From Sulfurisoma sediminicola (lineage in GTDB: Bacteria > Pseudomonadota > Gammaproteobacteria > Burkholderiales > Rhodocyclaceae): a DNA stretch of 64,000 nucleotides. The number at the start of each line of letters is the position of its first letter. The stretch's first letter is position 1. Below are positions 43,030-63,760 of this stretch, piece after piece. The position numbers were made by a program, and so were the translations under genes. Where the stretch lies: NCBI RefSeq assembly GCF_003865015.1, contig NZ_BHVV01000008.1, positions 372,001 to 436,000 of the forward strand, in the 5' to 3' direction. A model generated the notes under the pieces. It ran no database searches and was not told the origin of the DNA. It saw only the letters and a list, made by a program, of their open reading frames with translations.

Positions 43030-43049
43030 TCCTGAAGCCCCGAGCACAG

Positions 43050-43843: not shown

Positions 43844-43918
43844 TTCACCTTATCCCGAGTCAAGGCGGCTCCATGAGGGTTTGCTGATACTTGAGGCCTT
43901 TCCTCATCCATCCGCACC

Positions 43919-44509: not shown

Positions 44510-44513
44510 ATAT

Positions 44514-44774
44514 ATGAGCCCCCATGTCCTCAATGTCGTCTGGATCGCGCTGATGGCGGCGACCGCCGTCACCTGGTTCGTCGGCGAAATCCACGCCGCC
44601 GGCCCCAAGGCCGTCGCCGTCATCCTCGCCATCGCCGGCGTCAAGGGCTGGCTGGTGATCTACGATTTCATGGCCTTGCGTCGCGTCAAATTTCTTTGGC
44701 GCGCGGTCGTGCTAGGCTGGCTGCTCCTCGTGCTGGCGATCATCATGCTGGCGTACTGGCTAGGTCTGAAATGA
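44514..44774 (+). CDS. norF: NorF-like small membrane protein (subunit IV-like)
   Basis: The 86-residue protein has three predicted helices. It resembles the short prokaryotic cytochrome oxidase subunit IV proteins that accompany NorE. The role is assembly or stability of NOR by analogy. Its stop overlaps the norQ start (ATGA). Confidence 0.82.
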   Translation: MSPHVLNVVWIALMAATAVTWFVGEIHAAGPKAVAVILAIAGVKGWLVIYDFMALRRVKFLWRAVVLGWLLLVLAIIMLAYWLGLK

Positions 44775-45565: not shown

Positions 45566-45938
45566 CCCCGCGCCCGGCCAGGATCTCGCCATCGCGGCCG
45601 AGTCGCTCTATCTGGTCAACCTGATGCTGGCGCCAGGGCTGGGCTTTCTCGCCATCGCCTGGCTCTGGTTCAAGCACCGCGGCACCGCGCCGGTGCTGGC
45701 CCGCTGCCATCTCGATCAGACCTTCTGGGTCAGCCTCTGGGGAGGCGCATTGATCGTCGCCGCCGTCGCCGGCTTCGTGCTCCTCTTCGGTCTCCATTCG
45801 GAATGGACCTGGACCTACGTCATCCTCTACTTCACCTGCATCCACTCGACGCTGATCATGTTCGGCATCCTCGGCCTGGCCAAGGCCATGGCGGGACAAC
45901 CCTATGTCTATCCCCTCATCGGCCGCAAATGTGATTGA
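45546..45938 (+). CDS. Small membrane protein in nor cluster, unknown
   Basis: The 130-residue product has three to four hydrophobic segments (NLMLAPGLGFLAIAWLWF; SLWGGALIVAAVAGFVLLFGL; YVILYFTCIHSTLIMFGILGLA). No family is recognised with confidence. Translation probably starts at the TTG at 45546 inside the end of norQ, because GGAGGT lies five bases upstream (45535-45540) and no ATG or GTG occurs in frame before the first helix. The stop overlaps the start region of the polyferredoxin gene. The coupling on both sides suggests that the product works with NorQ or the polyferredoxin. Confidence 0.72.
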   Translation: MPHSGADPAPGQDLAIAAESLYLVNLMLAPGLGFLAIAWLWFKHRGTAPVLARCHLDQTFWVSLWGGALIVAAVAGFVLLFGLHSEWTWTYVILYFTCIHSTLIMFGILGLAKAMAGQPYVYPLIGRKCD

Positions 45939-46932: not shown

Positions 46933-47005
46933 GAATGGACCACCCGCAGTTTCAGAGTTGCGCGCACGTGGGCCGCTGGGGTGTCCCGCCCTGCTCATGT
47001 TCCAC

Positions 47006-47283
47006 GGCTTGCTTTGCACAGCAAGCCGGCTACGGCAGCGCGGAGCAGTGCTCCGCGCAACCCTGCCTACGCCCTCCGGCGTTGGCTATAAGCCAACGCC
47101 TCCCCCTTTACTTCGCTGGTCGAGACACCCCACCGACCCAGACAATGGCCGCGTGGGTTTTCACGCAAACCAACGCCCACAGGTTCTTCGCCCGGGGCGT
47201 CGGGTATCCGATGCAGCGAAGTAAAGGGGGAGGGCTGGGCGTCGCCCAGCCCGGAGGACATGAGCAGCATCGGATACCCGGCG
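47006..47283. repeat. Cluster of palindromes between polyferredoxin gene and norD
   Basis: The 408-base gap 46933-47340 has no gene. It holds perfect or near-perfect inverted repeats: 47006-47013/47020-47027 (8 bp), 47039-47047/47049-47057 (9 bp, one-base centre), 47078-47087/47091-47100 (10 bp), 47099-47117/47215-47233 (19 bp, long-range) and 47232-47240/47244-47252 (9 bp). A 17-base repeat around GGTATCCGATGC near 47198-47214 also recurs inverted at ~47267. The region looks like an inserted REP or MITE-like element. Confidence 0.75.
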
Positions 47284-47340
47284 TCCCGGACGCACCGAGA
47301 TCACAATCAAGGCTGGCGCACAGCGCCATGAAATAACGCC

Positions 47341-49229: not shown

Positions 49230-50786
49230 TCAGTGGCTGGTGCCTTCTGACCGGGTGATCTTGTTGTAGAGGTTGTACTTCCCGACCGGCTTGTCCATCG
49301 GGATGCGCTTCACTTCCTTGAAGGTCGCGGCATCGAACACCACCAGCGCGCCGCCGTCGGCCTTGCGTTCCCACAGGCTGGCCAGCGCGTACTTGCCGTC
49401 GCGGGTGAATTCGACGTGCGCCAGCGTCTTGCCCGGCGCGACCTTCACCTCGGCCACACGTTCGAGCGTGCGCTTGTCGATGATCTGCAGCGTGTCCTTG
49501 GCCTTGGACATCATCGAATCGGTCCAGGCATAGGGCGTCGCCTCGTGGCTGCGCATGAAGAAGCCGGGGCCGCGCGTCGGGATCTGCTTCACCGTCTGCC
49601 AACTCTTGAGGTCGATGACGCTGACCATCCCCTCCTTGAGATTGGGCGAGGCCATGACGCGGCGGCCGTTCCAGTCCCAGGTGATGCCGGAGCCGAGATG
49701 CGGCATGCCGGGCAGGTCGAGGTCGGCAACCTTCTTGCGTGCGTCAAGATTGACCACCTGGCCGCCGCCGCCCTCGCGTGCGGCGCCCATCAGCTCGGAG
49801 TAGTCCTGCGTGAAGAAGAAGTCGTCGAGCGGCGTCGACAGGAAGGTGCGGCGCGGATTGAGGAAACCCGGAATGAAGGCGCCTTCCTTGTACTTGAAGT
49901 CGTGGATCATGCCGACGGGCACATCCTCGGCCTTCGGATCGTAGCTGATCTCCCACACCTCGGGCACATCCTTGAGCGCGGCGACGAAGCTCTGGCGCGG
50001 GGCAGCATCATAGACCGCCGACACGCGCGAGCTTTCCTTGCCGTCCTTGTCGCGCACCGGGTGCACCTTGAGCAGGTTGAGGTCGGCATCGAGCAGCACC
50101 AGGGTGTGCGGCAGGTAGTTGGCGACAGCGACATACTTGCCGTCGCCCGACACCGCGACGTTGCGGGTATTGATGCCGGCGCGGATCTCGGCGACGACCT
50201 TGAGGTTCCACAGGTCGAACTTGCTGACCCAGCCATCGCGCGAGGCGAAAAAGACGTAGCGGCCGTCCGGGGTGAACTTCGGCCCGCCGTGCAGCGCGTA
50301 GCGGCTGGGGAAGCGGTGGATGGGTTCGAGCTTGTCGCCGTCGAGCACGGTGACGTGATGGTCGCCGGTCTCGACCACGATAAACAGGTTCATCATGTCG
50401 ACGCCGTCGAAGACGGCGGCCGGCTTGTCGGGCAGGCTGCCCGGCTTGAAATTGACGATGCGCGACTCGCGGATCTGCGCCTCCGTCCACGCCGGCTTCG
50501 GGCTCACCGGCGTGTAGATCCAGTTCACCACCGCCTCGATTTCCTCGGTCGAGAGGCGATCCCTGAATCCTTCCATCTGCGTCGCCGCCCTGCCCTCGCG
50601 CACGGTCTTGATCGCCTCCGGCTTGCGCAGCCGTTCCAGGCTCTCGGGCAGCAGCGCCGGGCCGGTGATGCCGAGGCGGTCGGGTCCGTGACAGGCCACG
50701 CAATGCTGCCGGAAAATATTCTGCGGCTCGGCGGCGACTGCCCAGCCGGTCGCGCAGGCGAGGACGAACGCGATCAGGCCGCGCAT
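49230..50786 (-). CDS. nirN: NirN: cytochrome c with heme d1-type propeller (dihydro-heme d1 dehydrogenase)
   Basis: The 518-residue periplasmic protein has a signal peptide (1-19) and a heme c site CVACH (Cys29, Cys32, His33). A cd1-type eight-bladed propeller begins around residue 100. GPALLPESLERLRKPEAI and GRAATQMEGF after the heme are NirN-like; NirS proteins have a different, longer c domain. NirN performs the last step of heme d1 formation. It overlaps nirJ by 13 bases. No nirS is in the window, so heme d1 made here must serve an enzyme encoded elsewhere. Confidence 0.88.
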   Translation of the reverse strand: MRGLIAFVLACATGWAVAAEPQNIFRQHCVACHGPDRLGITGPALLPESLERLRKPEAIKTVREGRAATQMEGFRDRLSTEEIEAVVNWIYTPVSPKPAWTEAQIRESRIVNFKPGSLPDKPAAVFDGVDMMNLFIVVETGDHHVTVLDGDKLEPIHRFPSRYALHGGPKFTPDGRYVFFASRDGWVSKFDLWNLKVVAEIRAGINTRNVAVSGDGKYVAVANYLPHTLVLLDADLNLLKVHPVRDKDGKESSRVSAVYDAAPRQSFVAALKDVPEVWEISYDPKAEDVPVGMIHDFKYKEGAFIPGFLNPRRTFLSTPLDDFFFTQDYSELMGAAREGGGGQVVNLDARKKVADLDLPGMPHLGSGITWDWNGRRVMASPNLKEGMVSVIDLKSWQTVKQIPTRGPGFFMRSHEATPYAWTDSMMSKAKDTLQIIDKRTLERVAEVKVAPGKTLAHVEFTRDGKYALASLWERKADGGALVVFDAATFKEVKRIPMDKPVGKYNLYNKITRSEGTSH

Positions 50787-51928
50787 GGCACGACTCCGAT
50801 TTCTTCGTCGCTGAGGTAGCACCCCGGATCTTCCGCCCACGGGTCGCCGGTGAGCTGCTGGGCGCGCACGCGGGTGTTGCCGCCGCAGATGTCGAAGTGG
50901 CGACACCGGCCGCAGCGCCCGCCGACATGGCGCGGCTGCGCCTTGAGCCCGGCCAGCAGCGGGTCGGAGATGTCAGTCCAGATCTGCGAGAACGGCCGCT
51001 CGCGCACGTTGCCGAGCGTGTAGTGCCACCACATGGTGTCGGGATGCACGTTGCCGAGGTTGTCGATGTTGGCGACATTGACGCCGCTGGAGTTGCCGCC
51101 CCATTGCGCCAGCTTCTGCCGGATGTGCGCCGCGAGGTCCGGGAAATTGCGTCGCACCCAGTAGAGCAGGTAGACGCCATCGGCATCGTTGTTGCCGGTG
51201 GTGAATTCCTTCTTCAGCCCCTGCTGCTGGTGCCGCCAGCAGGTGTCGAACAGCAGGTCCATGGCCTGCCGCGTCATCTGGTGGTGGGCGTCGTCCTTGC
51301 GGTTCTTGTTGCCGCGCCCGGCATAGTTGAGATGCGAGAAGTAGAAACGATCGATGCCCTCGTCCTCGACCAGCTGCAGCAGCGCCGGCAGGTCGTCGAA
51401 GTTGTCCTGCGTCAGCGTGAAGCGCACGCCGACCTTGAGGCCGGCGTCGCGGCAGAGGCGGATCGCGTGCAGCGACTTGTCGAAGGCACCCTGCATGCGG
51501 CGGAACTTGTCGTGGGTCGCGCCCATGCCATCGAGGCTGATGCCGACGTAGTCGAAGTCGGCGGCTTCGACACGGCGGCACATGGCCTCGTCGATCAGCG
51601 TGCCGTTGCTGGAGAGCGCGGTATAGAAGCCGAGCGCCTTCGAACGGCCCGCGATGTCGAAGATGTCGGGACGCAGCAGCGGCTCGCCGCCGGAGAGGAT
51701 CAGCGCCGGCACATGGAATAACTTGAGGTCGTCCATCACGCCGAATACTTCGGCGGTCGTCAGCTCGCCGGCGAAGTCCTTGTCGGCAGAGATCGAGTAG
51801 CAGTGCTTGCAGGTGAGGTTGCAGCGCCGCACCAGGTTCCAGATCACCACCGGCCCCGGCGGTTTGCGCGCGGGACCGAGCGGTGTCGGCGCGGCGATCT
51901 CCTGCATGAACTGGGAAATGCGGAACAT
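50774..51928 (-). CDS. nirJ: NirJ: radical SAM/SPASM enzyme of heme d1 synthesis
   Basis: The 384-residue enzyme has the radical SAM motif CNLTCKHC (Cys36, Cys40, Cys43). A C-terminal SPASM-type cluster (CGRCRHFDICGG and a later CYL) binds auxiliary Fe-S. Its N-terminus MFRISQFMQE is typical of NirJ, which removes the propionate side chains of didecarboxysiroheme to give the oxo groups of heme d1. Genes nirD/L/G/H and nirF, also needed, are not in the window. It is 12 bases from the prenyltransferase gene upstream in the same run. Confidence 0.94.
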   Translation of the reverse strand: MFRISQFMQEIAAPTPLGPARKPPGPVVIWNLVRRCNLTCKHCYSISADKDFAGELTTAEVFGVMDDLKLFHVPALILSGGEPLLRPDIFDIAGRSKALGFYTALSSNGTLIDEAMCRRVEAADFDYVGISLDGMGATHDKFRRMQGAFDKSLHAIRLCRDAGLKVGVRFTLTQDNFDDLPALLQLVEDEGIDRFYFSHLNYAGRGNKNRKDDAHHQMTRQAMDLLFDTCWRHQQQGLKKEFTTGNNDADGVYLLYWVRRNFPDLAAHIRQKLAQWGGNSSGVNVANIDNLGNVHPDTMWWHYTLGNVRERPFSQIWTDISDPLLAGLKAQPRHVGGRCGRCRHFDICGGNTRVRAQQLTGDPWAEDPGCYLSDEEIGVVPCAA

Positions 51929-51940: not shown

Positions 51941-52882
51941 TCAGCGCGACAGCACCAGCGCGCCTGCCAGTAGCAGGCCATGCAGCGAGGCGGCGAGAAT
52001 GGTCAGCTTGAGCGCCGGCACCAGTTGGGTCGGCTCGGCCGCGTGACGCCAGAGAATGCGCAGCGCGCCGACGCTGGCGCCGGCCGCCAGCAGGGAAGCT
52101 AGCGCCAGCCATGGCAGCATGCCCGTGGCGACCATGGCGACGACCCAGCCGTAGGTCAGCAAGGTGATCAGGGTGTAGCCCCAGCGCGCGCGCTGGACTC
52201 CGAGGCGCACGACCATCGTGCGCTTGCCGGCCGAGGCATCGGCCTTCACATCGGGAAACTGGTTGATGTAGAGCACGTTCGCCACCAGCAGGGCGAAGCC
52301 GAGGCCTGCAGCGACAGGCGTGAAGGAAAAACCGTGGCGCTGGACGAAGTCGCTGCCGACGACGACCAGCAGCCAGCCCGCGGTGATGCCGAACTCGCCC
52401 AGCCCGCGGCTTTGCAGCTTGAGCGGCGGCGCCGAGTAGGACCAGCCGACGATGAGCCCGGCCAGTCCGATCCAGATCAGCCCGCCGTCGCTGACCGCGG
52501 TGAGGTAGAGGCCAGCCGGCACCACCGCGGCGAGCAGGGCATAGCCGAAAACGCCGGTGGCGCGGACCGTAAGCACGCCGTTCTGGATGAAGCGGCTGCC
52601 GCCGGTGAAAGGGAAGACGCGCTCGGTGTTGGCGCTGTCGCAACCGGAGAGCGCATCGTAATAGTCGTTGATGACGTTGGCGCCGGCATGGGCCACCAGG
52701 GCGAAGAACAGCGTCAGCGTCGCCAGCGCCGGATCGAGGCGGATGCCGCTGACGGTGGCGGTGGCCAGTCCGAGAAGGCAGCCGACGAAGGTGACCGAGA
52801 GAAAGGCCGGCCGCGTCGCCGCGAAATAGCGCAGCGCCGGATTGGGCAGTGCGGCGAGGGTCGGTTCGAGCGGCTGCGGCAT
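51941..52882 (-). CDS. UbiA-superfamily prenyltransferase (MenA-like)
   Basis: The 313-residue integral membrane protein has eight to nine helices. The first Asp-rich motif is NDYYDALSGCD (~72-82); the second region is NQFPDVKADASAGKRT (~208-223). The NDYYD form and TGGSRFIQNG are closest to 1,4-dihydroxy-2-naphthoate prenyltransferases of menaquinone synthesis, but UbiA-family substrates are hard to tell from sequence. Its place between nirJ and the nos genes suggests that it supports the quinone or a prenylated cofactor used in anaerobic respiration; that is inference. Confidence 0.82.
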   Translation of the reverse strand: MPQPLEPTLAALPNPALRYFAATRPAFLSVTFVGCLLGLATATVSGIRLDPALATLTLFFALVAHAGANVINDYYDALSGCDSANTERVFPFTGGSRFIQNGVLTVRATGVFGYALLAAVVPAGLYLTAVSDGGLIWIGLAGLIVGWSYSAPPLKLQSRGLGEFGITAGWLLVVVGSDFVQRHGFSFTPVAAGLGFALLVANVLYINQFPDVKADASAGKRTMVVRLGVQRARWGYTLITLLTYGWVVAMVATGMLPWLALASLLAAGASVGALRILWRHAAEPTQLVPALKLTILAASLHGLLLAGALVLSR

Positions 52883-52898
52883 GGGTTGTCTCCCGGGG

Positions 52899-53399
52899 TT
52901 ACTTGAGCGCCGCCTCGGCGGCGGCTTCGATATCGGCCTTCCTCATGACGCCGAGCTTCATCGCGACGACGTTGCCCTTGCGGTCGATCGCCACGGTGAA
53001 GGGCAGGCCGGCGCGGGTGTTGCCGAGCGCCTGCATCAGCGGCAGGCCTTTGTCCTTGGCCAGCACGATCGCATAGTCCATTTCGTAGGCCTTGGCGAAT
53101 TCGCGCACCGCCTCGGCCTTGTCCTCGATGCCGATGCCGATGACCTCGAGGCCGCGCGCCTTGTACCTGACACGGGCCTTGATCAGTTCGGGGATCTCCT
53201 CGCGGCATGGCGCGCACCAGCGCGCCCAGAAGTTCACGATCAGCGGCTTGCCCTTGTAGGCGGCCATCACGGCGGGCTTGTCGTCGAGATCGGCCAGGGT
53301 CGCGACGAACAGCGGCTCGGCATTCACCGCGCTCTCGGCATGCACGCCGCTCGCGGCAAGCAGCGCGAGCAGGGGCAACAGGGCGAGCAGCGGCCTCAA
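52899..53399 (-). CDS. TlpA-like periplasmic thioredoxin
   Basis: The 166-residue protein has a signal peptide (~1-21) and the active site WCAPC (Cys62, Cys65) within NFWARWCAPCREEIPEL, as in TlpA/ResA proteins. Such proteins reduce cysteines of apo-cytochrome c or copper sites; a role for NosZ CuA or the cytochromes of this cluster is likely. Translation probably begins at the TTG at 53399, overlapping the nosY stop (TTGA) and preceded by GGGGAT. No ATG occurs in a suitable place. Confidence 0.87.
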   Translation of the reverse strand: MRPLLALLPLLALLAASGVHAESAVNAEPLFVATLADLDDKPAVMAAYKGKPLIVNFWARWCAPCREEIPELIKARVRYKARGLEVIGIGIEDKAEAVREFAKAYEMDYAIVLAKDKGLPLMQALGNTRAGLPFTVAIDRKGNVVAMKLGVMRKADIEAAAEAALK

Positions 53400-54223
53400 G
53401 GCAGATCCCCGCGACGGAACAGGAAGTAACCCAGCGTCGCGGCGCCGACGCCGATCGCGGCCGGATAGGCGAGGGCGAATATCTTGTAGCCGAGTGCGCC
53501 GAAGAGATCGAGGATGACGAAGGCCGAGGGGCCGAGCACGATCAGCTGCGGATCGAACAGTGCCAGCGCCGCCGTGCGGAAGACCTGCAGCGGGTTGGCC
53601 AGGGCGATGGTGACGGCCACCTCGGGCGCCACCTTGCCCTGGATCATGACGCCGAGGAGGATCAGGTCGAGGAACAGGAGCAGCGTGAGCCAGACGAGGA
53701 AGGCCGCGCCCTGGGCGACGTCGGTGCTGCGGGCCACGGCCGAGATCAGCATGCCGATGCCGAGGAAGCAGGCGGCCATCACGGCGAGCAGGGCCGTGTA
53801 GTAGCCGAACATGCCCCACGGCACCTCGATGCCGGCGACCACCGCGTAGAGCACGGCGCCGAGCATGGCGGCGAACACCGGAACGAAGATGACGATGTAG
53901 CGACCGAGGATCTTGCCCCAGAACCAGGCCGCGAGCGACACCGGCAGCGACAGCAGGTACTCGAACACGCCGGCCTCGCGGTCGCCGGCGACCGAGCGCA
54001 CGGTGGTGATCAGGACGAAGATCGGCAGGATCGCCATGGTGAGCTGGATGTAGGTGACGAGCAGGCGCGACAGGCCGATGAAGCCGAGCACGCGCGATTC
54101 GGTCAGCCCGAACAGGAACAGCAGCGCGACGATGCCGCCGAATACCAGGGTGTAGATCTGGAACCAGCGCGCCCGCAGGCTTTCCACGATGTCGAGCTTG
54201 GCGGTGAGCCACAGTTGCTTCAT
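53396..54223 (-). CDS. nosY: NosY ABC-transporter permease
   Basis: The 275-residue protein has six predicted membrane helices and the NosY-type stretch SVAGDREAGVFEYLLSLPVSLAAWFWGK. Together with NosF (ATPase) and NosD (periplasmic) it forms the NosDFY complex needed to build the CuZ centre of NosZ, acting on a sulfur or copper species. nosL lies 3 bases upstream. Confidence 0.94.
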   Translation of the reverse strand: MKQLWLTAKLDIVESLRARWFQIYTLVFGGIVALLFLFGLTESRVLGFIGLSRLLVTYIQLTMAILPIFVLITTVRSVAGDREAGVFEYLLSLPVSLAAWFWGKILGRYIVIFVPVFAAMLGAVLYAVVAGIEVPWGMFGYYTALLAVMAACFLGIGMLISAVARSTDVAQGAAFLVWLTLLLFLDLILLGVMIQGKVAPEVAVTIALANPLQVFRTAALALFDPQLIVLGPSAFVILDLFGALGYKIFALAYPAAIGVGAATLGYFLFRRGDLP

Positions 54224-54226: not shown

Positions 54227-54700
54227 TTACTTTCCCTTGGCCAGGACATGCCGGCTCATGTCGGTGAAATCGGTCGATCCGGCCTGCGGCAGCGCCACGG
54301 CGCCGAAGTTGTAGCCCATCGGCGAGACCTTGCCGAAGTATTGAACCTTGCGCGCATCGTGCCAGCGCAACTCGTTGCCGCGGTTGTTCACGTCGGCGAC
54401 CCAGAGCCGCGTCGCCGGCTCGGCCATCCACGGATAGTTGGCAGCCTTGTCGCGCAGCCAGAACACGGCGCAACCGATGTCGTCGAACTTGAACACGGTG
54501 TTCTTCGGGCCGCCCCGCATCTCGGCGGCGAAGCGGCGGTCGGAGATCACCATGCTGCAGCGGACACAGGTGTCGCGATCCCACTTGATTTCCTGCATGC
54601 CCTCGGGCCAGTCGCCGCGGCCGGAACAGGCGGAGAGCGCCGCCACCAGCGGTGCCAGTGCCACGCCGCCGCCGGCGGCGATGAAGCGGCGGCGATCCAT
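54227..54700 (-). CDS. nosL: NosL copper chaperone lipoprotein
   Basis: The 157-residue protein has an N-terminal RRR and a hydrophobic stretch ending in the lipobox LSAC (Cys25). The NosL copper-site residues are visible in CVRCSMVISD. NosL binds Cu(I) and delivers it for NosZ assembly. Its start overlaps the nosF stop by one base. Gene order F-L-Y differs from the D-F-Y-L order common in clade I clusters. Confidence 0.95.
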   Translation of the reverse strand: MDRRRFIAAGGGVALAPLVAALSACSGRGDWPEGMQEIKWDRDTCVRCSMVISDRRFAAEMRGGPKNTVFKFDDIGCAVFWLRDKAANYPWMAEPATRLWVADVNNRGNELRWHDARKVQYFGKVSPMGYNFGAVALPQAGSTDFTDMSRHVLAKGK

Positions 54701-55557
54701 CAGCCTTCGACCTCGGTCAGCGATATATGGTCGATGACGGCGACGTAGCGCGAGGCCATGCCCATGAAGCGCAGACGGTCGGGACCGGCCACCTTGCCGG
54801 TCCAGTCGAGGCCGTCGCCGAGATCGGTGAAGTTCCAGCTGGCCATGGCCTTGGCGAAGGCCGGTTCGGGACGCTTGACCGATATGCGGCAGTCGAGCTT
54901 GCCCGTGAGCGAGACATCGTCGGCGACACGATCGTCGAGCACCACCTTGCCCATGTCGAGTTCGACCACGCGGTTGACCAGCGTCGACACCTCGTTGAGG
55001 CGGTGACTGGAAATGAGCATCGTCGCCGATTCTGCGCGCTCGGCCAGCAGTTCGAAGAAGATCTTGCGCGCCTCGGGATCGAGGTTGGCGGCGGGCTCGT
55101 CGAGCACCAGCACGCGGGCCGAGCGACCGAGCGCGATGGCGATCAGGAGCTTCTGCTTCATGCCGCCGGAGAGCCGCACGAACTGGCGCGACATCACGCT
55201 ATCGACGTCGAGGCCGAGACGTTTGGCCAGGTCGAGGATGCGCTGCGGATCGCTGCGGCAGAGCGAGGCGGAAAAGTGGATCAGCTGGCCGACCGGCATC
55301 CTGAGCGGCGGCGGCAGTTGCGGCACGAAGCCGATCTTGCCGAGAACCGTGGTGCGTTCGCTCCGCGGCGACTGGCCCTCGATGGTGACGCTGCCGTCGT
55401 GGGTGTATTCGCCGAGCAGGCAGCGGATCAGCGTGGTCTTGCCGGCGCCGTTGGAGCCGATCAGCGCGACGCGCTCCCCCAGCCCGATCTCGAGGTCGAT
55501 GCCGTCGAGCACGCGGGCGCGGCGGAAGGTCTTGGCGACGTTGTGGAATCGAATCAT
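54700..55557 (-). CDS. nosF: NosF ABC-transporter ATPase
   Basis: The 285-residue ATPase has Walker A GSNGAGKT (34-41), signature LSGGMKQ, Walker B VLVLDEPAANLDP and the switch His in ISSHRLNEV. It powers the NosDFY complex. A 43-base gap separates it from nosH upstream. Confidence 0.95.
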   Translation of the reverse strand: MIRFHNVAKTFRRARVLDGIDLEIGLGERVALIGSNGAGKTTLIRCLLGEYTHDGSVTIEGQSPRSERTTVLGKIGFVPQLPPPLRMPVGQLIHFSASLCRSDPQRILDLAKRLGLDVDSVMSRQFVRLSGGMKQKLLIAIALGRSARVLVLDEPAANLDPEARKIFFELLAERAESATMLISSHRLNEVSTLVNRVVELDMGKVVLDDRVADDVSLTGKLDCRISVKRPEPAFAKAMASWNFTDLGDGLDWTGKVAGPDRLRFMGMASRYVAVIDHISLTEVEG

Positions 55558-55600: not shown

Positions 55601-56584
55601 TCAGAGCAGTTTGGAAAGACCCTTCACTTCGAAGGTCAATGAGCCCGTCGGGCAGGTGTCGACGCAGAGGCCGCAGCGCGTGCAGTCGGGGCCGATCGGT
55701 ACCTCGACGTCGACGGCGCGGCCCTTGATCACCGTGTCCAGCACATGCGGCACCAGGCAGACCTTGCGGCAGTCGCCTTCGTGGAAGCAGCCGTCGAGCT
55801 TGTACTTGATGCGCACCGGCGAGAGGATGCCGACGACGCCGTAGGTCAGGCCGATGGGGCAGGCATAGCGGCACCAGGCGCGCTTGGAGAAGAACACCTC
55901 GAACACCAGCAGCGCCAGAACCCACAGCAGCGCCACGCCCGGTCCGTAGATCAGGGCGCGAGAGAGGATGCCGGTGGGCGAGATCGCCTCGAACACCGTG
56001 TAGCCGGTGGCAATGGCGAGCACGGCGAAGACCAGCCAGAACACGCTGCGCAGGCGGCGGTCGATGGTCTGGTCGGTGACCAGCTTCTTCTTGACGAGGT
56101 AGAGGTGCAGCTTCTCCGCCCACTCCGCCAGCAGGTGGTAGGGGCAGACCCAGGAGCAGAAGGTGCGCCCGCCGAGCAGCACCCACAGCACCAGCACCGT
56201 TCCCGTCCCGATCAGCAGGTTGTTGATAATGTGCTTGTGCGCCAGCATCACCTGCAGCGCCGAGTTGAGGTCGATCAGGTGAAAGCCGACGAAGCGCGAG
56301 GCGGTCAGCGCGCCCTCGAGCATCTGGACGTCGAAATAGTACGAGATCACGAATAGCAGGTTGGCAATGATCAGCGTCGCCCAGCGCCGGTTGCGCCACT
56401 TGGTTGAGTGTTCCTGATGAGCGCGCATGTGCTCCTTCGCCGCGTTCAGATCGGCCTTGTTGGTCACGCGCTTGAGCTTATGCACCTGCTGAGCCCGCTC
56501 TGTAATCTGCTCGGGCTTCTTCGGCTCGCGACCGAACATGACCATGATCTGATCGCGGAAGCGGCGCTTCAGTACCTGATTCAT
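55601..56584 (-). CDS. nosH: NosH (NapH-like membrane ferredoxin)
   Basis: The 327-residue protein has four to five membrane helices, two CxxxCP-type motifs near the membrane (FCSWVCPYH and WCRYACPIG) and a C-terminal 4Fe-4S pair ending CTRCGLCVDTCPTGS. NapH-like proteins oxidise menaquinol and pass electrons to the G subunit. In clade II nos clusters NosH and NosG replace NosR. The start overlaps the nosG stop (ATGA). Confidence 0.93.
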   Translation of the reverse strand: MNQVLKRRFRDQIMVMFGREPKKPEQITERAQQVHKLKRVTNKADLNAAKEHMRAHQEHSTKWRNRRWATLIIANLLFVISYYFDVQMLEGALTASRFVGFHLIDLNSALQVMLAHKHIINNLLIGTGTVLVLWVLLGGRTFCSWVCPYHLLAEWAEKLHLYLVKKKLVTDQTIDRRLRSVFWLVFAVLAIATGYTVFEAISPTGILSRALIYGPGVALLWVLALLVFEVFFSKRAWCRYACPIGLTYGVVGILSPVRIKYKLDGCFHEGDCRKVCLVPHVLDTVIKGRAVDVEVPIGPDCTRCGLCVDTCPTGSLTFEVKGLSKLL

Positions 56585-57528
56585 GTTTTCCACACCTCGC
56601 GCGGAACGATTTCGATGGCGGCCGACTCGACCGGGCAGATCATTTCGCAGACTCCGCAACCGACGCAGGGTTCATGCACCACCGGCGATTTGCGCTTGCT
56701 GCCGTCGGGCGCGAACACCGTCTCGATGGAGATGGCGCCCTTGACCGGGCACTCGCGCGCGCAGAGGTCGCACTCGGCGACGTCGTAGGGATGCTCGGTG
56801 ATCTTGATCGGCTTCCAGCGGTTGACCGACATGTAGCGCATGCGGCCCTTGAAGTTTGAGCCGCGCGCCTGCCCCTTGAAGCCCTTGCCCTGGATGGCGA
56901 GGCAGGCCTCGGGCCGCGTCAGGCGCGCGACGCCGATGCGTTCGTTGAGGTTGAGCGTCGGTTCGGCGTCTTTTTCCTTGGCCAGCAGGATGGGCTTGGC
57001 CGCCAGCGCCGCACCGGCGCGCACCGAGAGGAATTCCGGCTTGTGGTAGGTCAGCGAGCCGGTCGGACAGGCGAGGATGCACTGCACGGCGTCGCAGGAG
57101 AAGTCGCAGGCCTGAGATCGTGCGTCGATGTAAGGCGTCCCGACACCGAAGCCGTCGACGAGGTCGGCGAGCTTGATCGCCGACACCGGGCAAACCTGCA
57201 CGCACTGGCCGCACTTGATGCAGCTGGAGAGAAAGTCCTTTTCATCGAGCGCGCCGGGCGGTCGCAGGCGCTGCTTCTGCGCGTAGACCAGCGGCAGGAA
57301 GCCCGACAGGGCCGCGCCCATGACGCCGCCGGTAAGCAGGATGGTGCGCAGCACGCGACGGCGCGCCTGCTGCCGGCGCTCTTTCGACAGCGGCGGCGTG
57401 CCGCCACCGCCAGCGCTGTGCTTGCCCTGCACTACCTTCGGGTCGCCTTCGGGAACCTTCTTGGCGGCGGCCGGGGACGGAGAATCCGGCGCAGCGGAGT
57501 CGTCGGGAAGCTGTTCTTCGTCGCTCAT
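56581..57528 (-). CDS. nosG: NosG (NapG-like periplasmic ferredoxin)
   Basis: The 315-residue protein has a cytoplasmic Pro/Ala-rich N-terminus (~1-45), a basic region and a membrane anchor (~60-80, LTGGVMGAALSGFLPLVYA). Four 4Fe-4S motifs follow: CIKCGQCVQVCP, CDFSCDAVQCILACP, CDLCARECP and CVGCGVCEMICP. It carries electrons from NosH across the periplasmic face. The N-terminal extension before the export signal is longer than in typical NapG. The start overlaps the nosD stop. Confidence 0.93.
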   Translation of the reverse strand: MSDEEQLPDDSAAPDSPSPAAAKKVPEGDPKVVQGKHSAGGGGTPPLSKERRQQARRRVLRTILLTGGVMGAALSGFLPLVYAQKQRLRPPGALDEKDFLSSCIKCGQCVQVCPVSAIKLADLVDGFGVGTPYIDARSQACDFSCDAVQCILACPTGSLTYHKPEFLSVRAGAALAAKPILLAKEKDAEPTLNLNERIGVARLTRPEACLAIQGKGFKGQARGSNFKGRMRYMSVNRWKPIKITEHPYDVAECDLCARECPVKGAISIETVFAPDGSKRKSPVVHEPCVGCGVCEMICPVESAAIEIVPREVWKT

Positions 57529-58919
57529 GCGTGTCTTGCCTCCGGCTTGTTGAAGCGCGGCGTCTTGTCCCGCAGTTGCAGCTCGGGTGTCGAGAACGGC
57601 GCCAGACGCTCGAGGAAGTCGAGCAATTCGAGCACCGGCGAGTTCTTGAAGAAGCGCGCCGCTGGAATTTCCATCCAGAGCTGATCGGCATAGGCGAAAT
57701 TCTCGTGCGGCGTGTCGCCGATACCGTCGCCGTCGCGGTCGAAGCCTTGGTAGGTGTCGAAGTAATTGCCGATCCAGGTGTTCTTGTCGCCGCTGCCGCG
57801 GCCGCCCTGGAAGACGTCGGTGATGTTGCCCTCGAAGACGTTGTCCTTGAGGATGTTGCCGCCGAGTTCGGAGGTGAGCTGCACGGCGATGCCGTTGTAG
57901 GCGAAGCGGTTGCCGTTGAAGCGGATGGTGGTGTCGGGCTGGAACGGCGACAGGTCGGAGCCGACGCCGACGGCGCAATAGATGATCTCGTTGCCCGAGA
58001 TCTCGATGTTGCTCGACTCCTTGAAGCCGAAGGCCATGCCGGCCGCGCCGGTGGCGTGCGAAATCACGTTGTTGCGGGCGGCGCCGCCTTCCATGTACAT
58101 GAAGTAAATGCCGACGGCATTGTCGTAGAAGCGGTTGTTCTCGACGATGTTGTTGTTGGCGAACATGAAATGGATGGAGTAGCGGCTGCGCTTGCCGACG
58201 TTGCCGCGGAAGATGTTGTCGTTGGAGTACCACGCCACCATGTCGCGGGTATCGATCACCTCGTTGTTCTCGATCAGGTTGCGGTGGCTGTACCACAGGC
58301 GCAGGCCGTCGCCGCGGACGCCGAGGTCGAAAGGCTTGGAGCGGATGCGGTTGCCGCGCACGACGCTGTCGTTGGACTGTTTGAGGTCGATGCCGAACAG
58401 GCAGTTGTCGACGACGAGATTCTCGATGGTGGCGCGGTGGCCGCGCACGTCGAGGCAGCTGTCGTCGGAGTCGTGCGAGTCGCCGGAACCGGTGAGATGC
58501 AAGCCGCGCAAGGTCGAATCGTTCGCCTTGAGCTCGAACACCGTGCCCTTGTCGCCGGAATCGATGGTGACCTTGCCGCCGCCATCGATGGTCAGCGGCT
58601 TGTCGACCACCACGGGGCCGGCATAAGTGCCCGGCGGCGGCTTCAGCACCGAACCGGCCGGCGCCGCATCGACCAGTTGCTGGAAGGGCTTGAGGCCGTG
58701 CACGCGCTTGTCGCGCTCGTTCAGCATGAATTGCGGCTTCGGCCGGTCGACTTCAACGCGTGGCGCGTTGCTCATGTCGGCCGTCGCGCCGAGCTTCTGC
58801 GCCTTTACCGGGCTTTCGTCACCGCCGCGCCAGCCGAGCTCGCCGCTGGTTTCGGCCGCGACCAGCAGCGTCGATACGCCCAGCGCCAGCAACGGCAGCA
58901 GGGCGCGGACGGGTTTCAT
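57525..58919 (-). CDS. nosD: NosD periplasmic right-handed beta-helix protein
   Basis: The 464-residue protein has a signal peptide (~1-22) and a carbohydrate-binding-like parallel beta-helix with many Asn-rich turns (ENNRFYDNAVGIYFMYMEG; GNRIRSKPFDLGV). It is the periplasmic partner of NosFY in building the CuZ cluster. The start overlaps the nosB stop. The ~50 residues after the signal (GELGWRGGDESPVKAQKLGATAD) are an extension of unknown use. Confidence 0.95.
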   Translation of the reverse strand: MKPVRALLPLLALGVSTLLVAAETSGELGWRGGDESPVKAQKLGATADMSNAPRVEVDRPKPQFMLNERDKRVHGLKPFQQLVDAAPAGSVLKPPPGTYAGPVVVDKPLTIDGGGKVTIDSGDKGTVFELKANDSTLRGLHLTGSGDSHDSDDSCLDVRGHRATIENLVVDNCLFGIDLKQSNDSVVRGNRIRSKPFDLGVRGDGLRLWYSHRNLIENNEVIDTRDMVAWYSNDNIFRGNVGKRSRYSIHFMFANNNIVENNRFYDNAVGIYFMYMEGGAARNNVISHATGAAGMAFGFKESSNIEISGNEIIYCAVGVGSDLSPFQPDTTIRFNGNRFAYNGIAVQLTSELGGNILKDNVFEGNITDVFQGGRGSGDKNTWIGNYFDTYQGFDRDGDGIGDTPHENFAYADQLWMEIPAARFFKNSPVLELLDFLERLAPFSTPELQLRDKTPRFNKPEARHA

Positions 58920-59899
58920 TCGACCGTGCCTTCGCGGATCTGCTTGCGGCGCAGCAGGATGGCCAGCGCCAACGCGACGAAGGTCACCAGCAGCAGGCCA
59001 TAACCCCAGTACGGGTAGGAGAAGGTCGAGAACTGCGCCACCTTGCCTTCGCCGAACACCGTGGGCATGAAGGGCTTGACGGTGAAAGCGCCCCAGGGGT
59101 GCATGTTGTGGCCGAAGAACCACAACCAGCCGGCGTATTCGATGACGAAGAACACCGGCAGCAGCGCCGGCACGGCTGCCAGCAGCAACTGGAACTGACG
59201 GATCTTCCAGACGCCGAGCACCACGATCACCATGGCGACGACGAGGAAGGCGATGGCGATGTGCGTGTAGAAGGTGACGTTGTCGCCCCAGTGCTTGATC
59301 TTGTCCGGCTCCTTGAAGAAGGTGCCGGCCTCGCGCACATAGTCCGCGACATGGCTGGCGAGATGGCCCAGCACGTACTGATCGACGATGGCCCAGGTCG
59401 CCACGGCGGCAAAACCCACCGAGAGGATCGTCAGGCGCAATTTCTGTTTGGTGCAGGCGAAGCCCGCCAGCATCACGGCGAAAAAGCCGAAGAAGAACTT
59501 GGCCAGCGGCTTCTCGACCGGGGCGCCGGTGGCGATCGGGAACATGCCGACGTAGTGGTTGATGGTGTTCATCTCGTGCACGCAATCGAGGCCCTCGGCA
59601 CCCTTGTCCACGTTCTTCTTGGCATCGAGGATGGGGTTGTAGCGCTCGTCTTCGGCGCCGAGATCCTTCTGGATGATCTCTCCCGCCATGCGGGTGCCCT
59701 TGCCGGCCGCACTGCAGCCGTTATAGACGCCGTTGAAATGGAAATGGATGCGGATGCCGTCGGGGAAGGCATCCGGCGGGTAGTTGGGCGCGGTCAGCGA
59801 CACCCACCAGATGGGAGCGAAGAAGGCGGCGATCATGGCGACCAGCGCGATCAGGGTCAGGCCGCCAATAGCGACATTGGGATTTTTGGGGGTGTTCAT
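58916..59899 (-). CDS. nosB: NosB, multi-spanning membrane protein of clade II nos clusters
   Basis: The 327-residue protein has about six membrane helices. A large periplasmic loop between the first two holds two cysteines and several histidines (GIRIHFHFNGVYNGCSAAGKG; CVHEMNTINHYVGMFP). The position between the small cytochromes and nosD, together with the topology, matches NosB of clade II clusters, known from Wolinella and Dechloromonas and absent from clade I. The function is not established; the loop histidines and cysteines hint at a metal or electron-transfer role. Confidence 0.82.
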   Translation of the reverse strand: MNTPKNPNVAIGGLTLIALVAMIAAFFAPIWWVSLTAPNYPPDAFPDGIRIHFHFNGVYNGCSAAGKGTRMAGEIIQKDLGAEDERYNPILDAKKNVDKGAEGLDCVHEMNTINHYVGMFPIATGAPVEKPLAKFFFGFFAVMLAGFACTKQKLRLTILSVGFAAVATWAIVDQYVLGHLASHVADYVREAGTFFKEPDKIKHWGDNVTFYTHIAIAFLVVAMVIVVLGVWKIRQFQLLLAAVPALLPVFFVIEYAGWLWFFGHNMHPWGAFTVKPFMPTVFGEGKVAQFSTFSYPYWGYGLLLVTFVALALAILLRRKQIREGTVE

Positions 59900-60063: not shown

Positions 60064-60795
60064 TTACTTCTTCTTGCCGCCGGCCTTGGCTTTGCACATC
60101 GAACCCGGCATGGACAGGCTGGATTGGTAGGCGGAAATCGCCACCAGCTGGTCGTTGGTGTAGGGCTTGATAATCTTCACCATGTCCGGGTTGGCGTTGC
60201 GGCGCTTGCCGTCGCGAATCTCGGTCATCTGGCGCAGCAGGTACTTGTAATGCTGGCCGGCGATGACGGGATAGAACTTCTCCTTGTTGCCCTCACCGGT
60301 GGCACCGTGGCATTCCTTGCACTGCTTCTCGTACAGGTCCTTGCCCATGGCGATCTGCTTGGCGGCATCGGCGCCTTCGTATTGGCCATGATCGATCGGA
60401 ATGCACAAACTGTTGATATAGGAGGCCACATTGGCCAGTTCCTGTGCGTCGGTCAGTTCCTTGGCGAAGGGATACATGGTCGGGTTGTCGCGCAGTCCGG
60501 CGCGGATGTCGGCCATCTGCTTGATCAGCACCGTGCTGTGCTGACCGGCAAGTTGCGGGAAGGTGCCATCGGTACGACCGGCGCCGGACGGCAGGTGGCA
60601 GGCGCCGCAAATCTCGTAGCCTTCCTTGCCGGCCTTGGGATCACCCTTCTTCTGCAGGGCTTCGATCTTTTCGCCCTCCTGGGCATTCCATTTGTAATCC
60701 TTGCCCTCGATGCCTTCCTTCTTCGGGGCAGGCGGGCCGGCGAAGGCAACGGTGGCGGAAAGCAGCGCAAGGACGAGCAGGGTGGGTGATTTCAT
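60064..60795 (-). CDS. Diheme periplasmic cytochrome c (clade II nos cluster)
   Basis: The 243-residue protein has a signal peptide (1-19) and two heme c sites, CGACH (Cys63, Cys66, His67) and CKECH (Cys159, Cys162, His163). Each lies in a cytochrome c4-like half with a later Met (MYPF; MPGS). It probably delivers electrons to the CuA of NosZ. It has its own FNR-type promoter (60828-60869) in addition to any read-through from nosZ. The sequence from 59900 to 60063 downstream is non-coding and holds several GC-rich hairpins. Confidence 0.9.
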   Translation of the reverse strand: MKSPTLLVLALLSATVAFAGPPAPKKEGIEGKDYKWNAQEGEKIEALQKKGDPKAGKEGYEICGACHLPSGAGRTDGTFPQLAGQHSTVLIKQMADIRAGLRDNPTMYPFAKELTDAQELANVASYINSLCIPIDHGQYEGADAAKQIAMGKDLYEKQCKECHGATGEGNKEKFYPVIAGQHYKYLLRQMTEIRDGKRRNANPDMVKIIKPYTNDQLVAISAYQSSLSMPGSMCKAKAGGKKK

Positions 60796-60827
60796 GTAGT
60801 GATCCTCTTCAAAAGTCAATATATCTT

Positions 60828-60891: not shown

Positions 60892-61206
60892 TCAGGGTTT
60901 CAGCTTGGAGAGGTAGTCGGCCAGCGCCTTGATTTCCTCGTCGCTGACGAGCCCCATGACCCCTTTCATCGCAGCGGTCTGGCCGTTGTTGCGCGCGCCG
61001 CTCTTGATGTCCTTCATCTGGGCCTCCGCATAGGCTGCACTCTGGCCGGCGAGTTTGGGATAGGGCATGCCCTTGAGGGGGGTCTTGGCATCCTTGCCGT
61101 GGCAGGACCAGCAGGTCTTTTCCTGAAAAAGCTTAGCGCCGTCAAGGGCGAAAGCCGAAGCGGAGAACATCATCGCTGTGGCAGCGAGAGTCAGGGTCAG
61201 TTTCAT
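60892..61206 (-). CDS. Monoheme periplasmic cytochrome c (clade II nos cluster)
   Basis: The 104-residue protein has a signal peptide (~1-20), heme c site CWSCH (Cys32, Cys35, His36) and a likely Met ligand in AAMKGVMGLV. It resembles cytochrome c-553/c5-like carriers found next to clade II nosZ, where they feed electrons to NosZ. It lies downstream of the nosZ terminator, so its expression may depend on partial read-through or on a weak FNR-like site at 61269-61282. Confidence 0.9.
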   Translation of the reverse strand: MKLTLTLAATAMMFSASAFALDGAKLFQEKTCWSCHGKDAKTPLKGMPYPKLAGQSAAYAEAQMKDIKSGARNNGQTAAMKGVMGLVSDEEIKALADYLSKLKP

Positions 61207-61283: not shown

Positions 61284-63578
61284 TTACTTGACCTTCTTGG
61301 CACCATTCTGCTCAAGGTAGGTCTTGGCGCGCAACCCGAGGTCGGCGGTCTTGACCTGGTATTGCCAGATCTGCTCGGCCCAGAGGTTGGCATTCTCCCA
61401 ATCCTTCTTGGCGGCGAACGCCTCATGCTTCTCTTTCAGGCCCTTGGTCTTGCCCAACTGGTCAAAGGCGTCTTCGACCATGGCCACGACATCCGGGAAG
61501 TCCTTGTAGTTGACACTGGTGATGTAGGCCACGACGGAGTCGATGATCACCTGGGTGTCGGCCACTTTCTTCACGGTCGCCTTGTAGTCGGCTTCGGTGT
61601 AGGAACCCTTGGCCAGCGTCGTCGTCTTGCTCGGCTTCCAGCCCTTCGGCTTCACCAGGAGGTAGCCCTGCATCTCGAGGTGGAGAGCGGAGCAGAACTC
61701 GGTGCAGTAGTAGGGATAGACGCCTTCCTTGTCGGCCTTGAACTTCAGCTGGACGGTCTTGCCCGGCTCGACCGAGGCATGCACGTTGTAGGTCGAGACG
61801 GTGAAGCCGTGGGTCTCGTCCTGCGCGCGCTCAAGGTTGGTCAGGTTGATGGTGATCTCGTCGCCCACTTCGGCCTCGATGGTCTCAGGCGTGATGTGCG
61901 AGCGGATCAGGCTGCCGAAGACCTCGACCTTGTTGCCCTTCTTGACGGTCCTCTCCTCGCCGGCAACCACGCGGCCCGGATGCGGCTTGTCGGTGCGGCT
62001 GTTGGTGCCGACCTTGTAGCGCACGCCCGGCTTCAGCTTGTCGGCCGAGATGGCGACGACGTAGTGCGGCTCGCCCAGCGGCAGCGGCATGTCGTAGAGG
62101 AGCTGCATCTTGTCGTTGCTGATGTCGATCAGCTGGTGGTTCTGCGGATGCAGCGGACCCACCGGATTGAAACGATCGATCGACAGCTTGTTCAGCGCGA
62201 CCAGATAACGGCCTTTCGGATCGACGGAATCGCCTTCCATGGTCATCAGGTGACCGATGTTGTAATGGACGGAGATCTTGTCGAGCACCTTGCCTTCGCA
62301 GTAGTTCCACTTCGCGACCTGGCTGTCGACATACAGGGAGGTATATGCGATGCAAGGCTTGGAGTCGTACTGCGTGTGCAGGGGGCCGAGGCCGAGTTGC
62401 ACCTGGGTGTGCAACGTGTCCTTCATGCTCAGCACCGGGATGCCGTACGGATCCTTGGACTCGAACTTGCCGGCCTTGATGGCGGCCATGATCTTCTCGA
62501 AGGAATACACGGACACGTGGGTGTCGAGCTTGCCGGCGACGACCAGCATCTTGCCGTCCGGCGTGACATCGACGCCGTGCGGCGACTTGGGCTCGGGAAT
62601 CAGGAAGAGGATGCCTTCCTTGATGGCCGTTTCCATCATCAGCACGTCGTGGCCGTTGATCTTCTTGGCCTTGCCGGCCTTGACCAGTTCGGCGGCCTTC
62701 TTCCAGTTGATCACGTGCAGGTAGTCGGTGTCCTTGGCGGAGCAGCCGGCTTCGTACGGCGGACGACCCTTCTCGATGCCGCCGACGTAACGCTCGGAGC
62801 AGAAGGAGTTGGTGAACGACCAGCCGTCGGACGGGCCCTTGCCGGCGTCGGAAAGGTCCTGCGAATAGGGCGGCAGTTCGAGCGAGAAGGACTCTTTCTC
62901 GACGATGCGGCCTTCCTTGCGGTCGAACTTCCAGTAGGTGACGCCGCCGCGATACTTCTCGTTGAACTCTTCGAGCGGGAAGAACTTCTTGTTCTCCAGC
63001 GGCGAAGCGTACTGCGCGGCCTCGATCACGTACTCGGTATTCGGGGTGACGAAGGCGCCGCCGTGCTCGGACTTGAAGATCGGGTTGACCACGATCTGCT
63101 TGGTCTCGAAGTCGCGCAGGTCGAGCACCGCCAGGCGCGGGTTGGCCTTGTCGTTGATGAACAGATACTGGCCGTCGTACTTGCCCTGGGTCTCGGAGAT
63201 CGCCGGGTGGTGGGTGTCGCCCCAGGTGATATCCTTGCCGTCGATGCGGCCCTGTTTCAGCACGGCCTTCGACTCTTCGTCGAAGCCGTAGCCCTGCCAG
63301 GGCTCGGGCGTGAACACGCCGATGTACTTGAGGATGCGCATCGAGGGGATGCCGTAGACGATGATCTGGCCCGACTGACCGCCGGAGCTGAAGGCGATGA
63401 AGTCATCGCGCTTGCCGGTGGGGACGTAGGTCTTGGAAGCGGCCAGCAGATCCTGTTGGCTCAAATTGCGACGCTTCATCACGTCCTGCAGGGACTCTGC
63501 CGACCACGATGCGGCCGCCGCGAGCCCGAGACCCGCCGCCAGCAGCAGCGAGGTGGACCGCACTGCAAATTTCTTCAT
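61284..63578 (-). CDS. nosZ: Nitrous oxide reductase, clade II (Sec-exported)
   Basis: The 764-residue enzyme reduces N2O to N2 in the periplasm. The signal peptide MKKFAVRSTSLLLAAGLGLA has no twin-arginine motif, which with the neighbouring nosB and nosG/H marks clade II. CuZ histidines are visible in DTHHPA, HGGAF, SPHGVD, HTQYD, HYNIGH and EPHY. The CuA site is CTEFCSALHLEM (Cys625, Cys629, His633, Met636). Some 120 residues follow CuA, a helical extension lacking any CxxCH. The ATG at 63578 is preceded by GGGAGAAA. It is transcribed from an FNR-type promoter at 63680-63721. Confidence 0.96.
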   Translation of the reverse strand: MKKFAVRSTSLLLAAGLGLAAAASWSAESLQDVMKRRNLSQQDLLAASKTYVPTGKRDDFIAFSSGGQSGQIIVYGIPSMRILKYIGVFTPEPWQGYGFDEESKAVLKQGRIDGKDITWGDTHHPAISETQGKYDGQYLFINDKANPRLAVLDLRDFETKQIVVNPIFKSEHGGAFVTPNTEYVIEAAQYASPLENKKFFPLEEFNEKYRGGVTYWKFDRKEGRIVEKESFSLELPPYSQDLSDAGKGPSDGWSFTNSFCSERYVGGIEKGRPPYEAGCSAKDTDYLHVINWKKAAELVKAGKAKKINGHDVLMMETAIKEGILFLIPEPKSPHGVDVTPDGKMLVVAGKLDTHVSVYSFEKIMAAIKAGKFESKDPYGIPVLSMKDTLHTQVQLGLGPLHTQYDSKPCIAYTSLYVDSQVAKWNYCEGKVLDKISVHYNIGHLMTMEGDSVDPKGRYLVALNKLSIDRFNPVGPLHPQNHQLIDISNDKMQLLYDMPLPLGEPHYVVAISADKLKPGVRYKVGTNSRTDKPHPGRVVAGEERTVKKGNKVEVFGSLIRSHITPETIEAEVGDEITINLTNLERAQDETHGFTVSTYNVHASVEPGKTVQLKFKADKEGVYPYYCTEFCSALHLEMQGYLLVKPKGWKPSKTTTLAKGSYTEADYKATVKKVADTQVIIDSVVAYITSVNYKDFPDVVAMVEDAFDQLGKTKGLKEKHEAFAAKKDWENANLWAEQIWQYQVKTADLGLRAKTYLEQNGAKKVK

Positions 63579-63679
63579 AATTTTCTCCCGTTTATAAACA
63601 ATGACTTGCGTCACCCGATGCAGCCACTTCAAACTGCAATCGCCATGCGGCAAAATGCCACTGCGGCAATATGACGCGG

Positions 63680-63721
63680 ACTTTATGACCTTTGGTGCGG
63701 GAACGGTTTGACTTGGGTCAA
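63680..63721 (-). promoter_or_regulatory. FNR/Dnr-type box and -10 element of nosZ
   Basis: TTGAC-TTGG-GTCAA (63708-63721) is a perfect FNR/Dnr palindrome. TAAAGT on the - strand (63685-63680) is the -10, 29.5 bases from the box centre, giving a start near 63673 and a ~95-base leader. The box is also 46 bases from the divergent ATG at 63761 and may serve both directions. Confidence 0.85.
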
Positions 63722-63760
63722 GTCCCTTGCTGCTTCCCTGCACAAGAATCGCGCCTTCCC

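Follow-up and report, generated by a model that had tools for sequence, protein, structure and literature searches.

Between the nosZ cluster and nirJ of Sulfurisoma sediminicola lie a gene for a UbiA-superfamily prenyltransferase (hereafter P) and a gene for a TlpA-type thioredoxin, and the question raised by this arrangement is what a prenyltransferase would contribute to the respiration of nitrous oxide (N2O). Bacteria containing clade II NosZ are important sinks for this greenhouse gas; to our knowledge, which quinone feeds clade II NosZ in mainly ubiquinone-type bacteria is not settled. The original prediction for this DNA had proposed that the prenyltransferase makes either a low-potential quinone for N2O respiration or a prenylated heme. 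The reading that we prefer, with a probability of roughly 0.42, is that P attaches the tail to a naphthoquinol-type ring—one that the cell does not make by a known route—for the nos chain in this genome. Throughout, the window denotes the whole stretch of 64,000 nucleotides that was analysed.

The nos–nir Gene Run

On the minus strand of the window, the genes are ordered nosZ, two cytochromes c, nosB, nosD, nosG, nosH, nosF, nosL, nosY, tlpA, P, nirJ, and the gene for a cytochrome c/D1 protein (Table 1). The MenA-like prenyltransferase and the TlpA-like thioredoxin that the original prediction had placed within this nos–nir run were both found where it had located them, with family matches over cut-off. 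The stop codon of nosY and the start codon of tlpA overlap (TTGA), and gaps of only 16 bases separate tlpA from P and 12 bases P from nirJ, so that transcription as a single unit is likely. In a same-genus genome (G138), P is 89% identical to the window P and the gene order is the same, indicating that the arrangement of P and tlpA is not due to chance; the nearest relative of the window locus in the named collection is locus L201, from a metagenome-assembled genome named Sulfurisoma sp. Among the loci compared, the window nosZ shows 80–93% identity to nosZ genes of the 216-base type and 31% to one of the 213-base type. Facing the nos–nir run on the plus strand (window positions 41190–49188) are norC, norB, norE, norQ, a gene for a CcoG-like polyferredoxin, and norD, all named by eye.

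Table 1. Genes of the nos–nir run in the window, listed from P through the nos cluster to nosZ and then on the nir side of P
Feature	Position	Strand	Remarks
P, UbiA-superfamily prenyltransferase, MenA/UBIAD1 branch	51941..52882	-	313 aa; Asp-rich motifs NDYYDALSGCD and DVKAD intact
tlpA, TlpA-type periplasmic thioredoxin	52899..53399	-	166 aa; TTG start; WCAPC motif
nosY, ABC permease	53396..54223	-	Named from gene order and sequence; no NCBIfam model over cut-off
nosL-like	54227..54700	-	Probable, from position and sequence by eye; no NCBIfam match
nosF, ABC ATPase	54700..55557	-	ABC ATPase matches; name from gene order
nosH-like polyferredoxin (Fer4_5)	55601..56659	-	Name from gene order
nosG-like 4Fe-4S protein	56581..57440	-	C-terminal part of ORF 56581-58296; name from gene order
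nosD	57525..58900	-	Part of ORF 57525-59585; name from sequence and order
nosB-like membrane protein	58916..59899	-	Probable, from position; no Pfam match
Cytochrome c, two matched cytochrome c stretches	60064..60819	-	Pfam
Cytochrome c, one matched stretch	60892..61206	-	Pfam
nosZ, clade II type	61284..63743	-	nos_propeller, cupredoxin, and COX2 domains
nirJ, heme d1 radical SAM protein	50774..51928	-	TIGR04051, 639 bits vs cut-off 515; next gene after P
Cytochrome c and D1-heme-domain protein (NirS/NirN type)	49230..50906	-	Pfam domains

TlpA as a Member of the nos Cluster

The thioredoxin is of the TlpA/ResA type, with Redoxin and AhpC-TSA matches over cut-off and the active-site motif following a hydrophobic leader. 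Wherever a nosY locus extends 800 bases or more past that gene, a tlpA homologue comes directly after it (63 of 63 loci, a count that includes repeat retrievals of the same genome; the 65 nosY loci in all correspond to 42 distinct genomes or contigs). In the TlpA proteins of the relatives, W-C..C is seen in 39 of these 42, and the remaining three keep C..C but not the W. Given this constancy, TlpA is an ordinary core member of the family's clade II nos cluster. The statement that neither of the two genes is a standard nos or nir gene thus does not apply to tlpA; it does apply to P, which is not core to the clade II nos cluster and occupies a variable quinone slot behind tlpA, as described below.

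TlpA-type proteins act as reductants of copper-site cysteines. By analogy with them, the window TlpA would be a periplasmic thiol reductant, most likely for the CuA cysteines or for a copper chaperone in NosZ assembly. A tlpA–P pair is also found without adjoining nos genes at L046 and L225, in both cases behind ABC-transporter and HPP-like genes (by eye), with nor genes present as well at L225.

Family, Motifs, and Predicted Structure of P

Membership of P in the UbiA superfamily is clear (PF01040, 85 bits vs a cut-off of 34.2). Its 17 NCBIfam matches at E-values up to 0.001 are headed by MenA models and include no UbiA (4-hydroxybenzoate), heme O synthase, or DPPR synthase model. P nevertheless falls under every MenA equivalog cut-off (TIGR00751, 78.3 vs 102; PRK06080.1-3, 121.7 vs 264), whereas the canonical MenA proteins of G046, G811, and G812 clear those of TIGR00751 and PRK06080.1-3. 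In a 34-row alignment with P, the residues N72, D73, and D76, and D211 and D215, of the two Asp-rich motifs are invariant, as is a stretch of the P subfamily's own, N85 and P91–R97 (PFTGGSR); the canonical MenA signature near residues 86–100 is absent from P. Identity to three canonical MenA rows is 27–29%, with P on a separate branch in a quick tree.

The structure model of P (pLDDT 93.4) has an all-helical membrane fold, and UbiA-fold structures head its PDB matches. Among solved structures, UBIAD1, a vitamin K2 synthase, is the closest both by profile (E 2.9e-22) and by fold (E 7e-7, TM 0.65), at 23% identity. Judged by sequence, P is on the MenA side of the UbiA superfamily. In the window's genome there are four PF01040 genes in total, encoding UbiA, heme O synthase, a DPPR-synthase-like protein, and P; an ordinary UbiA, heme O synthase, or DPPR synthase was thus ruled out for P, each being a separate gene. 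The same separateness of the heme O synthase and UbiA genes, together with the lack of a match between P and any heme O synthase model, led us to reject the prenylated heme that had been suggested as a product.

Menaquinone Routes in the Genome

The genome assembly comprises 2,995,111 bases in 8 contigs and is rated 99.99% complete. The original prediction had proposed a check of the genome for men or futalosine genes, and this check came out negative. MenD was not found over cut-off (three model matches, the best with 63 bits vs 244, and none at E 1e-40), in a search that detected MenD in 7 of 7 men-bearing relatives; MenB gave no match at E 0.001; and MqnA/D were not found. Positive controls for these searches were detected in named genomes. 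De novo synthesis of menaquinone by a known route is therefore very unlikely in this genome and was rejected, and P is not the last step of such a pathway here. Across the family, PF02621 gave weak matches in 9 of 150 genomes, two of them barely over cut-off (~26 bits) and none convincing as evidence of the futalosine pathway.

The Slot Behind nosY–tlpA in Relatives

The contents of the slot behind nosY–tlpA were counted per distinct genome or contig, with curated-model checks for MenA, MenB, MenC, and MenD; because many loci had been fetched for their likeness to P, the counts are not frequencies. P with no men gene behind it fills the slot in 20 genomes or contigs, including the window and Sulfuritalea, and in three more (L209, L254, and L258) the contig ends in or soon after P. 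P-menG-menA-SBF is found in two (L212 and L217; genomes G811 and G812). Five genomes—the same-genus G046 together with G019, G029, G080, and G114—have a men operon starting menG-menA-menB-menC, which at loci L124 and L134 runs on as menC-menE-menF-menD. The slot holds menG-menA-SBF in G008, menA-SBF in G066, menA in the MenB-bearing G084, and menG in G028, whose menA-SBF pair lies another ~2 kb away on the opposite strand; G050 and G088 have men genes adjoining nosZ. No recognised quinone gene was found in seven slots, one of which (L147) is visible for 1.3 kb only, and L145 ends too soon behind nosY–tlpA to show the slot. As for the naming of these genes, the MenE match of the first operon is below cut-off, MenF and the first UbiE/MenG (L120) were named by eye, and PF01209 was confirmed for the MenG copy of L217 only. 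A second NosD-family gene stands behind the quinone slot in many genomes (e.g., L212:12148-13350).

Since variable quinone genes occur at a fixed place in the nos operon, the slot can be described as an exchangeable quinone cassette. The proposal of a low-potential quinone for N2O respiration gains from the presence of quinone genes in this slot in relatives, including one of the same genus, and loses from the failure to find the known de novo pathway in the window's genome. Taken together, the slot and P suggest that N2O respiration may use a borrowed or alternative electron carrier.

A DHNA-Salvage Cassette in Relatives

Canonical-type MenA is present in 45 of 150 family genomes, or in 41 if the weak matches of G061, G111, G136, and G146 (35–37% identity, possibly other UbiA relatives) are left out. 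MenB over cut-off occurs in 28, all within the 45, and 17 of the 150 have MenA without MenB. MenD was not found in any of the 15 MenB-less MenA genomes tested (13 of the 17, plus G811 and G812). In nine genomes without MenB and MenD (G811, G812, G066, G132, G008, G056, G028, G145, and G110), a gene for an SBF/BASS-type sodium symporter lies directly behind menA, so that canonical MenA, absence of MenB and MenD, and a linked transporter coincide as a salvage cassette in these relatives; within the 64-kb window, no SBF transporter gene was found. The gene absences are weaker in several of the nine, whose assemblies are incomplete (G132, G066, and G056, rated 81–87%) or without a completeness rating (G811 and G812).

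No SBF gene directly behind menA was found in the 14 MenB-bearing genomes counted (13 plus G077), of 28. MenA with neither MenB nor an adjoining SBF gene occurs in G042, G127, G098, G030, and G089 and, with weak MenA matches, in G061, G111, and G136; in G103 and G146 a contig edge behind MenA leaves SBF beyond judgement. Two of these loci, L304 (G042) and L305 (G127), come from single-contig genomes rated 100% complete and combine canonical-type MenA with the absence of MenB, MenD, and a neighbouring SBF gene, which represents a partial menaquinone pathway of another build. MenB and SBF alternate several times on the MenA tree. An independent-pairs test of SBF vs MenB on this tree gave five pairs on starred branches, with 3–4 opposite and 0 the same, which is too few for significance.

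For two SBF carriers PF01758 was confirmed, both scoring below the NCBIfam bass and PanS cut-offs; candidate carriers behind menA are exemplified by L217:11369-12262 and L309:8623-9477. The SBF proteins are predicted to be importers of DHNA that would replace the DHNA-making genes. At L199 (G447, of the same class), an SBF-like gene (31% identity) lies divergently beside a MenA gene. Our search of the open-access literature, outside which most subscription journals lie, found no paper on DHNA transport or uptake. The use of outside DHNA itself has precedents: in the accessible text of the respective sources, Porphyromonas pasteri is described as missing five men genes, retaining the last two, and growing on DHNA (PMC9704088), and bacteria with only the last men genes, including Lactiplantibacillus plantarum, as using DHNA from outside (PMC10746273).

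Distribution and Placement of P

P is present in 66 of 150 family genomes, with one match each at E 1e-20 except in G004 (two pieces). The set was reduced from 68 because a quick tree placed the matches of G077 and G136 with canonical MenA, which also lowered the number of genomes with both P and MenB from two to one. In the family, P mostly adjoins rng or ruv genes (rng/ruvC-P-ruvA; by eye), far from nos. At E 1e-18, P matches were obtained in 59 of 300 sampled genomes of the order and 15 of 398 of the phylum, the weakest being more distant UbiA relatives, and many order members among the matches listed have P between ruvC and ruvA. Such a housekeeping site in many Betaproteobacteria implies that the role of P is not confined to nos. 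Thus, P as a nos-only gene was rejected, and with it the general form of the idea that the prenyltransferase is dedicated to N2O respiration, since most family genomes with P have the housekeeping-site copy. Of the 68 family genomes with a P match, 23 lack a nosZ match (22 of 66 once G077 and G136 are removed), although at least three of these (G001, G065, and G066) carry nos genes.

In a careful tree of 48 rows, at least three changes between nos/tlpA and other sites are required, each of them imposed by starred branches; what is counted here is changes, which need not be gains. A single clade uniting the window group with the g11 group was rejected (p-AU 1e-4). In the third lineage, represented by G611 and a Magnetococcales record, P follows nosY and tlpA is missing; measured from the start of the contig, the genes of these two lie at identical coordinates, so that they may be one record. 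Three separate placements of P beside nosY are the simplest reading of the tree, and such repeated placement argues for a functional link. In our search of the open-access literature, with most subscription journals outside it, no paper was found that ties men genes or P to nos clusters.

P and MenB occur together in 1 of 150 genomes (66 with P, 28 with MenB; Fisher p 3e-7, uncorrected for kinship). Both MenB-bearing and P-bearing species occur in four genera, namely g1 (G046 vs G000, G101, and G138), g20 (G019 and G080 vs G126), g66 (G114 vs G066 and G149), and g21 (G020 and G081 vs G127). With the length of the match (216 or 213 bases) serving as a proxy for nosZ type, verified on a subset of loci only, P or MenA was found in 34 of 37 clade II nosZ genomes vs 71 of 113 others (p 7e-4; the 34 include G111, with its weak MenA match), and MenB in 19 of 37 vs 9 of 113 (p 6e-8). 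Taken by itself, P shows no preference for clade II nosZ (13 of 37 vs 53 of 113, p 0.25) and is significantly more frequent where the other nosZ type is present (31 of 45 vs 35 of 105, p 7e-5); among MenA-less genomes, P is present in 10 of 13 clade II genomes vs 50 of 92 others (p 0.15). Both P and MenA are missing from three of the clade II nosZ genomes. The P-menG-menA-SBF operons of G811 and G812 combine P with canonical MenA; P is thus no simple replacement for MenA, and the notion of a plain substitute is weakened accordingly.

The neighbours of distant P relatives in Neomarinimicrobiota, Deltaproteobacteria, and Thiothrix gave no clear hint of the substrate. In Neomarinimicrobiota (L259:7837-9207, L262:292-1680, and L263:9506-10894), the P-like domain forms the C-terminal portion of a protein of 456–462 aa; at L259 and L263, the second gene upstream of it encodes an FAD protein that by eye looks similar to geranylgeranyl reductases. 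In Thiothrix (L253 and L255), a P relative (~46%) lies divergently beside a UbiD-like gene (by eye).

Proposed Role of P

In the preferred reading, P would be a membrane enzyme that adds a polyprenyl tail to a small ring of the naphthoquinol type, with DHNA or a close relative as the predicted substrate. As the genome searches turned up neither of the two menaquinone pathways that are known, scavenging or a route not yet described would have to supply the ring, and UbiE, whose presence we infer, could add the methyl group. The resulting low-potential quinone would then feed the NosG/NosH/cytochrome module of the clade II nos system. Strain BSN1 of S. sediminicola exists in pure culture, with anaerobic growth listed for it (PMC6397845); a borrowed ring is thus not needed for all growth and would be required only conditionally.

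That same pure-culture growth would sit well with a different product, namely some other aromatic compound with a prenyl tail, which might be a benzo- or naphthoquinone not described so far. It would be made from a ring of the cell's own, and P, with a general role, would have been recruited to nos where the chain uses that compound. This possibility, which we hold to be doubtful though the strongest of the alternatives, is also in line with a subfamily that has its own invariant stretch and sits at a housekeeping site in many betaproteobacterial genomes, with the lack of MenB in 65 of the 66 P genomes of the family, and with the coexistence of P and canonical MenA in the nos operons of G811 and G812. 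However, P shares the slot with menaquinone genes and the SBF carrier gene, a menaquinone-related product accommodates the near-exclusion of P and MenB more easily, and among the neighbours of P at the loci read none was recognised as a ring-forming partner.

P might also be a passenger, of housekeeping origin, that reached the nos operon by copying or relocation and is transcribed along with it, with no role in N2O respiration. The single P match per family genome (in two pieces in G004), located either elsewhere or behind tlpA, and the persistence of tlpA–P pairs without adjoining nos genes (L040, L044, and L046) are as expected of a passenger, but three placements behind nosY or nosY–tlpA, in a slot otherwise used for men genes, make it unlikely, and the nos-linked P copies retain 65–89% identity to the window P. 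Service to nir, for example by prenylation of heme d1 or another tetrapyrrole, would account for the closeness of P to nirJ in the window and for the same order in G138 and G065; it is very improbable, given that heme d1, as far as we know, carries no prenyl tail, that P matches no heme O synthase model, and that P is followed by a second nosD in Sulfuritalea records and by nap-like genes (by eye) in G010 (g11).

Comparison with Known Systems and Implications

P resembles MenA of the Men pathway in belonging to the UbiA superfamily, in its Asp-rich motifs, and in having MenA models as its best NCBIfam matches, and canonical menA fills in relatives the operon slot that P fills here. It differs from MenA in its low identity, separate branch, and scores below all MenA cut-offs, and in having no MenD, MenB, or Mqn partner found in the genome. 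P also resembles UBIAD1 in profile and fold, though at low identity, and menadiol may be among its substrates. As in the DHNA-using P. pasteri and L. plantarum, a MenA-type step would occur here minus the DHNA-making genes, to judge from the accessible text of the sources (PMC9704088, PMC10746273); unlike in those bacteria, it lies within a betaproteobacterial denitrification operon, with a linked SBF/BASS carrier in relatives.

The window cluster also resembles the clade II nos system of Wolinella succinogenes. That system comprises the NosG-C1-C2-H module and NosB, and it reportedly depends on NosG, C1, C2, H, NosB, and the cytochrome bc complex. The two have in common nosZ, nosB, nosD, nosG, nosH, nosF, nosY, nosL, and two cytochromes c, whereas the window cluster adds tlpA and the variable quinone slot.

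A broader and more tentative view, which we would rate below the reading for the window itself, is that an exchangeable naphthoquinone cassette—a men operon, a MenG/MenA/SBF salvage set, or a UBIAD1-like P acting on scavenged naphthoquinols—follows nosY–tlpA in the clade II nos operons of Rhodocyclaceae/Sterolibacteriaceae, and that N2O respiration might in such cases run on a borrowed quinone. With a quinone cassette fixed in the nos operon, the quinone question becomes directly testable, and the salvage cassette supplies in SBF a candidate DHNA importer, which, if borne out, would be the first as far as our search of the open-access literature reached. Were the ring scavenged, N2O consumption would hinge on the community exchange of a vitamin K precursor. 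Overall, if this view is true, N2O reduction in these bacteria would depend on vitamin-K-type precursors released by other microbes.
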